Assembly: GCA_023957215.1 (NCBI GenBank)
Contig: JAMLHH010000011.1
Location: 1 to 64,000 of the forward strand
Direction: 5' to 3'
DNA from: Chitinophagales bacterium
GTDB lineage: Bacteria > Bacteroidota > Bacteroidia > Chitinophagales > JADIYW01
Length of the DNA: 64,000 nucleotides
The notes below the pieces were generated by a model that did no database searches, was not told the DNA's origin, and saw nothing but the letters and a program-made list of their open reading frames with translations. Of the stretch, positions 24,858 through 37,225 are shown in pieces. Every line of letters starts with the position of its first letter. Position 1 is the stretch's first letter. The position numbers and the translations under genes were made by a program.

Positions 24858-25371
24858 ATCAATGTACCGATGCAGCACCGGACATTGAGCATCGTCGAAA
24901 TGTCAAGGTGCGAATCATTCCCCCCGTGGTCGGTGTTTCGCCACCGACCACTTTCATACACCGACTACTTTCAGTAGATTATCTAGAAGAACTATATTGG
25001 TTGGTGACGGAACACCAACCAAAGGAGCGACACTGATCTAATTTGCTAATTAGCTAATTCGAGAATGTATCAATGTACCGATGCAGCACCGGACATTGAG
25101 CATCGTCGAAATGTCAAGGTGCGAATCATTCCCCCCGTGGTCGGTGGCGGAACACCGACCACGGGAAAAGAACTATATTGGTTGGTGACGGAACACCAAC
25201 CAAAGGCAAAAAGATGAAGGTGGTTTAGTTAATTTGCTAATTAGCTAATTCGAGAATGTAGCAATGTACCGATGCAGCACCGGACATTGAGCATCGTCGA
25301 AATGTCAAGGTGCGAATCATTCCCCCCCGTGGTCGGTGGCGCAACCCCGACCACGGGGGGGATCTCTTTAA
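24858..25371. repeat. Three direct repeats (~190-210 bp) carrying perfect palindromes
   Basis: Three copies of a unit begin at about 24858, 25069 and 25260. Each has a conserved head (CAATGTACCGATGCAGCACC, then GACATTGAGCATCGTCGAAA and TGTCAAGGTGCGAATCATT) followed by a C-run and a hairpin built on GTGGTCGGTG/CACCGACCAC. Stem lengths are 10, 12 and 14 bp in copies 1, 2 and 3. Copies 1 and 2 are followed by a second hairpin, GGTTGGTG ... CACCAACC (25000-25021 and 25180-25201), inside a shared stretch starting AAGAACTATATTGG. The stretch TTTGCTAATTAGCTAATTCG precedes copies 2 and 3. Units are too long and too few for a CRISPR. They look like REP/MITE-like mobile repeats that reach into the IS110 remnant. 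Confidence 0.85.
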
Positions 25372-25630
25372 GTCTATAGGATTGAGCATTGTAAAACAAA
25401 GTTCTGCTTTACTTAATTCAAAAGCTAATGCATATCCATAATATCCGGTGTGTTCCATACATAGCCAAACATCATAATCAAGTTTCTGAACTTGTTTGAT
25501 AAATTTCTCAATTTCGTGCTTTGTGTTTTCACAAATACCATCAGATTGCAGTAGTTCATTGTCTTCTGTCAGAAAACAATAATTAAAAGTGTCTTTGGAA
25601 ATGTCTATTCCAATAAAGAGTTTTTTTCAT
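25371..25630 (-). pseudogene. IS110-family transposase remnant (N-terminal DEDD domain)
   Basis: Reading from the ATG at 25630, the sequence has seven A after the ATG; with six, the frame continues as MKKLFIGIDISKDTFNY and on to WLCMEHTGYYGYALAFEL and LNPIDLKRS. This matches the N-terminal RuvC-like DEDD domain of IS110 transposases (first Asp in GIDISK, Glu in MEHTG). The frame is therefore broken by a one-base homopolymer change near its start. It is cut off after about 86 codons where the palindromic repeat begins at 25371. The C-terminal serine-containing Tnp_20 domain is absent, so the element cannot move by itself. Confidence 0.8.
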
Positions 25631-25670
25631 AACTTTACATTTAGTTATTAAAAAAATTCTGATTACCAAA

Positions 25671-25806
25671 TGGGTTTAGGCTAAAGCTATTAATAAGCCT
25701 TAAAGCTTAACATTCTAAACAGCTCTATAAACCCAAGAGAAGAAGAGGACTAATGCTCAGCATAAGGCTAAAAACTTAATCGCCGAAATAGTTCACCTCT
25801 TCTTCT
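25671..25806 (-). ncRNA. Candidate IS110 bridge-RNA region: two adjacent large stem-loops
   Basis: Between the transposase start (25630) and the repeat copy at 25864 lie two hairpins. Stem A pairs TGGGTTTA (25671-25678) with TAAACCCA (25728-25735) and has a further AGGCT/AGCCT pairing inside. Stem B pairs AGAAGAAGAGG (25738-25748) with CCTCTTCTTCT (25796-25806), 11 bp without mismatch, enclosing a 47-base loop with a GGC/GCC inner stem. IS110 elements are known to encode, in the non-coding end before the transposase, a bridge RNA with two internal-loop hairpins that pair with target and donor DNA. Position, direction and the two-loop layout fit that here. Function is inferred from layout only. 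Confidence 0.5.
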
Positions 25807-25863
25807 TTGGTATCAGTTTATATCATTATAAAGATAATTATTTATCCTTTGGCAAATCTAATA

Positions 25864-25923
25864 GCATCGTCGAAATGTCAAGGTGCGAATCATTAGACCA
25901 TGACTTTAGTCGTGGGATAATGA
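25864..25923. repeat. Fourth copy of the repeat head, joined to a different palindrome
   Basis: Bases 25864-25894 are identical to the end of the head in the three upstream repeats (GCATCGTCGAAA ... GCGAATCATT). Here the head runs into another hairpin: TCATTA/TAATGA as outer stem (25890-25895, 25918-25923) and CCATGAC/GTCGTGG as inner stem (25898-25904, 25909-25915) with one G-T pair. The copy abuts the presumed outer end of the IS110 remnant. After it, to 26119, is non-coding DNA that includes a purine-rich stretch around 25930-25975. Confidence 0.7.
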
Positions 25924-26119
25924 TATTTAACCACAAAGAACGCTAAGAAAGCGCAAAGGACACAAAGGAGAGATTCGTACTTTGTCCTTTAGAAAATCCT
26001 GAAGGGATGATAGGATTCTTTCCTATTCAATGTATGGTTTTTCACAAATATGTGAATATATACGTTTTCAGATTAACTATTAGTCCTTTATCCTAAAAAG
26101 CATAGAAATAAATAGAATA

Positions 26120-37051: not shown

Positions 37052-37136
37052 GGTGAGATGGGTGAGTGGCTTAAACCAGCAGTTTGCTAAACTGTCGTAC
37101 CGTAAGGTACCGAGGGTTCGAATCCCTCTCTCACCG
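37052..37136 (+). tRNA. tRNA-Ser (GCT anticodon)
   Basis: A full cloverleaf can be drawn: acceptor GGTGAGA/TCTCACC, anticodon stem GCAGT/ACTGT with loop TTGCTAA (anticodon GCT), a long variable arm (GTACCGTAAGGTAC) typical of class II tRNAs, and a T-arm GAGGGTTCGAATCCCTC. The discriminator is G. No CCA is encoded. Confidence 0.95.
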
Positions 37137-37150
37137 CTGTATAAACTTCA

Positions 37151-37225
<75 letters not shown>

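Follow-up and report, generated by a model that had tools for sequence, protein, structure and literature searches.

The question raised by this locus is whether two large hairpins 5′ of a broken IS110 transposase gene are the remains of a bridge RNA, and whether their loops still record where the element inserted. The locus lies in a 64,000-nucleotide stretch of the genome of a Chitinophagales bacterium (the window; Table 1), for which a first-pass annotation had proposed a candidate bridge RNA upstream of an IS110 remnant. We place at roughly 95% the probability that the double hairpin belongs to a bridge RNA gene in the left non-coding end of an IS110-group insertion sequence that is now dead; the proposal is supported by covariation and by guide/target and donor matches.

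Table 1. Features of the IS110-group remnant and its surroundings (window coordinates; guide and RNA assignments are predictions).
Feature	Position	Strand	Basis or remark
Palindromic repeat array with three intact target copies	24868..25360	.	Ends at the transposase truncation point
TTTCGACGATGCTCA copies beside the element	24886-24900, 25097-25111, 25288-25302
IS110 transposase remnant, first ~90 residues (part of DEDD/RuvC-like domain)	25360..25626	-	PF01548
Probable bridge RNA body: two big hairpins in outer stem ACCAA/TTGGT	25659..25817	-	Fold; match to model R1, not independent because the window sequence is a training member
Hairpin B, donor-binding loop, 8-bp stem	25671..25735	-	Fold; arm-swap test, 15 relatives
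Hairpin B arms TAAACCCA/TGGGTTTA	25671-25678 / 25728-25735	plus-strand numbering	8 bp, 49 bases between
Right donor guide TTAATAGC	25686..25693	-	Reverse complement GCTATTAA vs. core + left end GCTATTAG, 7/8
Left donor guide TTTAGAATG	25711..25719	-	Equals right end of L011 (CTTAGAATGC, CTTAGAATG), 8/9
Hairpin A, target-binding loop, 11-bp stem	25738..25806	-	Fold; compensatory changes in 16 relatives
Hairpin A arms	25738-25748 / 25796-25806	plus-strand numbering	11 bp, perfect; 47 bases between
Right target guide region GCTGAGCAT	25753..25761	-	Reverse complement ATGCTCAGC fits ATGCTCA of intact repeat (core GC + TCA)
Left target guide TTTCGGCGAT	25779..25788	-	10/10 with flank if G:T wobble counts
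Small 5′ stem-loop AAGGATAAATAATTATCTTT	25830..25849	-	Fold
Left terminus of element, TATTAGATTTGCC	25851..25863	-	Common to L011, L012, L018, L056; flanks different
Left target TTTCGACGAT + core GC (25864-25865)	25864..25875	-	Abuts left end of element

The transposase remnant is a minus-strand frame (25626-25360) that begins KKLFIGIDISKDTFNYCF and matches the DEDD_Tnp_IS110 profile (PF01548) at 42.3 bits against a cut-off of 29, with residues 6-89 aligned to profile positions 1-83. The frame is out of register with its ATG start codon and ends after ~90 residues at the junction with the repeat array. In a genome-wide profile search the remnant is the sole PF01548 match, and there is no match anywhere in the genome to PF02371, the C-terminal domain with the catalytic serine, which was lost by truncation. 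Thus, the element is dead, as had been claimed of its transposase, and has no help from another IS110 transposase in the assembly. The left boundary is fixed at 25863 because the terminus TATTAGATT is common to related copies while their flanks differ; the window copy no longer has a right end.

Left terminus and transposase gene are separated by ~235 bases. As in its relatives, a long non-coding left end thus precedes the gene, which is the arrangement of the IS110 group, with the RNA in the left rather than the right end. This placement bears on whether the region could instead be a seekRNA of the IS1111 type. Transposase domain and guide principle are common to both families (PMC11187229; PMC11208160), and IS1111-group elements such as ISEc11 are alike in these respects, but they hold their RNA in the right end, 3′ of the transposase, whereas in the window and its relatives it lies 5′ of the gene, as in the IS110 group. 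We consider an IS1111-type seekRNA highly improbable, and the IS110-type bridge RNA remains the preferred reading.

Two adjacent large hairpins, one with an 8-bp stem and one with a perfect 11-bp stem, had been described here, and the arm coordinates agree with ours. We letter them in coding-strand order, opposite to the earlier lettering: on the minus strand, which is the reading direction of both guides and transposase, the 11-bp hairpin (A, target loop) comes first and the 8-bp hairpin (B, donor loop) second. Folding of the minus strand had been suggested as a check, and the 244 nt of 25620-25863 fold at -68.7 kcal/mol, compared with -44.7 ± 4.2 kcal/mol for dinucleotide shuffles (z = -5.77; 0/200 as low). 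The predicted fold comprises, from 5′ to 3′, a small stem-loop, hairpin A and hairpin B, with A and B inside an outer stem ACCAA/TTGGT that is present in three close copies only. The plus strand of the hairpin region folds too (z = -4.8), as expected because the stems are long and symmetric. Rfam at its gathering threshold gives no match to a bridge RNA family in the window; its only matches there are two adjacent tRNA genes (37052-37136 and 37151-37225, plus strand).

To assess conservation, a covariance model (R1) was built from three copies (the window, L011, and L021) and searched against 398 genomes of the order. It matches 27 places, one of them a training member, in 22 other genomes besides the window. 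An IS110 transposase frame, whole or broken, lies directly downstream at 19 of the 27, and two further places run into a contig end. Two additional matches within the window were set aside: one on the plus strand at 25727-25816 (31 bits), which is not a second RNA but the antisense of hairpin A, matched because its stem is symmetric, and a weak one at 1750-1864 (E = 0.04), judged to be chance.

Pairs in hairpin A were counted in an alignment of 16 sequences made by sequence alone (A4); the model-fitted alignment (A3) was left out because it leans towards structure and holds two antisense rows. In A4, 87.5% of cells are paired, compared with 71.6% after shuffling, and 11 of 17 pairs show compensatory change. 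The covariation value is 0.518, against 0.198 ± 0.024 shuffled and 0.06-0.21 slid, and pairing falls to 31-52% when the partner is slid by 1-3 columns. Since the arms of hairpin B vary in length, it was tested by swapping arms among 15 elements: own arms pair at a mean of -12.8 kcal/mol, compared with -6.7 ± 0.7 kcal/mol for permuted arms (0/5000 as low). Therefore, both hairpins have been maintained as RNA structure, and the related IS110 copies keep the stems with compensatory changes, the outcome on which the earlier proposal had been made to depend. This agrees with a bridge RNA, in which a pair of conserved, covarying hairpins with large internal loops is expected; conservation is much stronger in the inner part of loop B than in loop A.

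These results also dispose of the idea that the two hairpins are palindromes or extragenic repeats lying near a transposase remnant by chance. The neighborhood is indeed rich in palindromic repeats; yet no shuffle folds as well, and conservation with compensation beside IS110 genes extends to many genera. A search of the organism's own genome for intact copies or full hairpins finds none, only a 79-base piece of a left end on contig 67 (L004, G000:C67:56940-57018), so the hairpins are not a dispersed repeat. We regard chance origin as refuted, its probability being negligible, and retain the bridge RNA reading.

The first loop of the IS621 RNA is identical to the left target's top strand on its 5′ side and complementary to the right target on its 3′ side (PMC11208160). 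For 22 elements, the putative left guide, taken as the bases after the conserved loop A motif GGTGAACT, was compared with the flanking bases that adjoin the left end. With left boundaries set by eye from the common terminus, and permutations given equal register freedom, guides match their own flanks at a mean of 7.89/9, compared with 5.06 ± 0.23 for permuted pairs (0/1000 reach this value). For 20 of 22 flanks no other left guide scores above the element's own, and the own guide is perfect (9/9) in eight elements, for example GACACGAAC (L065) and GGACATTGC (L059); L047 (the L021 element) and L061 show no preference for their own left flank. Right guides likewise prefer their own right flanks among the 12 elements in which that flank is readable (0/5000 permutations). 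The L004 piece has another flank and a different guide, and its agreement of 7/9, reached by 512/20,000 shuffles, was not counted as a guide/target match because it is not significant and the core is not GC.

A cis-acting leader that regulates transcription or translation of the transposase, rather than a guide, would also place hairpins directly 5′ of the gene, where they would be co-transcribed with it. However, the bases of loop A track each copy's insertion site, which is unexpected of a regulator; this explanation is largely refuted and we hold it to be very unlikely, if slightly less so than an IS1111-type seekRNA. The hairpins may nonetheless have a regulatory side effect beside the guide role that we favor.

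The guide in the window can itself be read against its surroundings. The left guide and the flank share nine identical bases plus one G:T wobble, a score of 8.5/9 on the measure used for relatives, reached by 142/200,000 flank shuffles. The right target was checked on intact repeats, the copy's own right end being absent, and the right guide matches over only 5-7 bases; of ATGCTCA, only GCTCA (the core and three bases) is informative because AT is constant in relatives. As expected of a bridge RNA, the first loop therefore matches both its own left target (10/10, with one wobble) and its right target (5 bases including the core). Together, the two guides predict the 15-mer TTTCGACGATGCTCA, which occurs intact four times in the 2.88-Mb genome, three times beside the element and once on contig 37; neither a version with one mismatch nor a reversed control was found across the 2.88 Mb. 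These 15-mers lie in copies of a repeat in which palindromic sequence borders the target on either side (CACCGGACATT...AAATGTCAAGGTG), and the element's flank is the other half of such a repeat, with 32 bases identical. The guide/flank match and the intact repeats thus indicate that the window copy sits where its own guide points, which answers a further suggested check, that loop bases be compared with a genomic target.

The array beside the element contains a 98-base unit three times (spacing 211 and 191), interleaved with inverted GTGGTCGGTG...CACCGACCAC and TTGGTTGGTG...CACCAACCAA units. On the other side, 25888-25985 is a dispersed repeat (tcattagaccatgactttagtcgtggg onward) with many 35-100-base copies on other contigs.

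By direct comparison of bases, the second loop matches the element ends, at 7/8 for the window's own left end and 8/9 for the right end of the relative L011, which stands in for the lost right end of the window copy. The suggestion of a surviving record of donor and target in the loops is thus borne out, with loop A corresponding to the target and loop B to the element ends. In the window, both right guides (target and donor) include the core, and the left target guide stops before it. The window and L012, a truncated Mesonia copy, have left guides that end before the core, whereas most other elements include the last two flank bases.

Among related copies, L011, on a contig of a Lishizhenia MAG, has an open 329-aa transposase frame, full-length as judged from the reading frame; this copy spans GC|TATTAG to CTTAGAAT|GC. 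A same-genus copy at a different place in its genome has lost most of its transposase and, in hairpin B, the 3′ half; its left guide is off by one base. It is 90% identical to the window over the RNA and 93% over the gene start. The earlier view of an RNA better preserved than its protein therefore holds for completeness (a complete RNA gene beside a truncated transposase) but not for base identity, which is alike in both. Because these identities are similar and the donor hairpin is half deleted in the same-genus copy, the contrast is no evidence of selection; a whole RNA beside a broken protein reflects chance placement of deletions. Elsewhere, L067 (G179:C28) is a short derivative of ~407 bases with both ends present, which keeps hairpin A with a 9/9 left guide and a matching right guide, lacks hairpin B, and retains only the last ~50 residues of the transposase; it was either deleted in place or mobilized in trans. 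One genome (G302:C1) contains four near-identical copies (L058, L069, L073, and L074), three of which adjoin GCAAAATC...GATTTTGC palindromes and one of which has a broken transposase; this element was probably recently active.

Bacteroidota promoters have the form TTTG ... TAnnTTTG. A piece of the left terminus, TAGATTTG, fits the -7 half of such a promoter, which would be completed only in the circular form; the window keeps this left half alone. Among the 10 relatives that have both ends, six show a TTTG-N20/21-TAnnTTTG-like pair once these are joined (0.07 on average after shuffling, maximum 2), a pattern that was chosen after looking, so that a promoter across the joined ends is suggestive only. 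If the living element worked as IS621 and ISEc21 do, its ends would have been joined in an excised circle to form a promoter; the RNA would have been transcribed from there, starting at the left end and running into the gene, and the transposase would have bound it (PMC11208160; PMC11187229). One loop would then pair with the chromosomal target and the other with the element's own ends, and recombination would take place at the core GC, with catalysis presumed to resemble that of the same two elements. Here, the element inserted into a palindromic repeat, within its loop (TTTCGACGAT-GC-TCA); later, at the junction with the repeat array, it lost its right end together with the right-hand two thirds of the transposase.

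The closest described counterparts are the bridge RNAs of IS621 and the IS110 group (Durrant et al., 2024; PMC11208160), with which the locus shares a structured RNA in a long left end; a small 5′ stem-loop followed by target loop and donor loop; a left guide equal to the left target top strand and a right guide complementary to the right target including the core; a donor loop more conserved than the target loop; a promoter across the circle junction (here a suggestive sequence pattern); and insertion in a palindromic extragenic repeat. The locus departs from IS621 in its core (GC rather than CT), in the short outer stem drawn around both hairpins in its nearest copies, in a left guide that does not reach the core in the window and L012, in promoter halves of Bacteroidota appearance (TTTG/TAnnTTTG), and in that the window element is dead. 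The seekRNA of ISEc21, also of IS110 type, is alike in that its guide matches flanks on both sides, a likeness by description rather than by direct comparison of sequences; in ISEc21 the upstream non-coding region is needed for circle formation and transposition (PMC11187229). It is conceivable, though we think it rather unlikely, that these elements constitute a Bacteroidota IS110 branch with its own layout, in which an outer stem closes both loops, the left guide falls short of the core, and the core is read by the right guide. With few copies available, the short left guide of the TATTAG branch is either a real difference in layout or a result of decay.

The kind of system, an RNA-guided recombinase, is already known, as the guide principle has been since 2024, and the fossil is another IS110 bridge RNA. 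Its interest is that the bridge RNA of a dead element can be found by reading raw sequence, and that the loops of the fossil still tell where the element jumped. The R1 relatives provide a Bacteroidota set in which guides and both flanks can be read, an aid to comparing how guides are laid out and to selecting bridge recombinases suited to Bacteroidota promoters.
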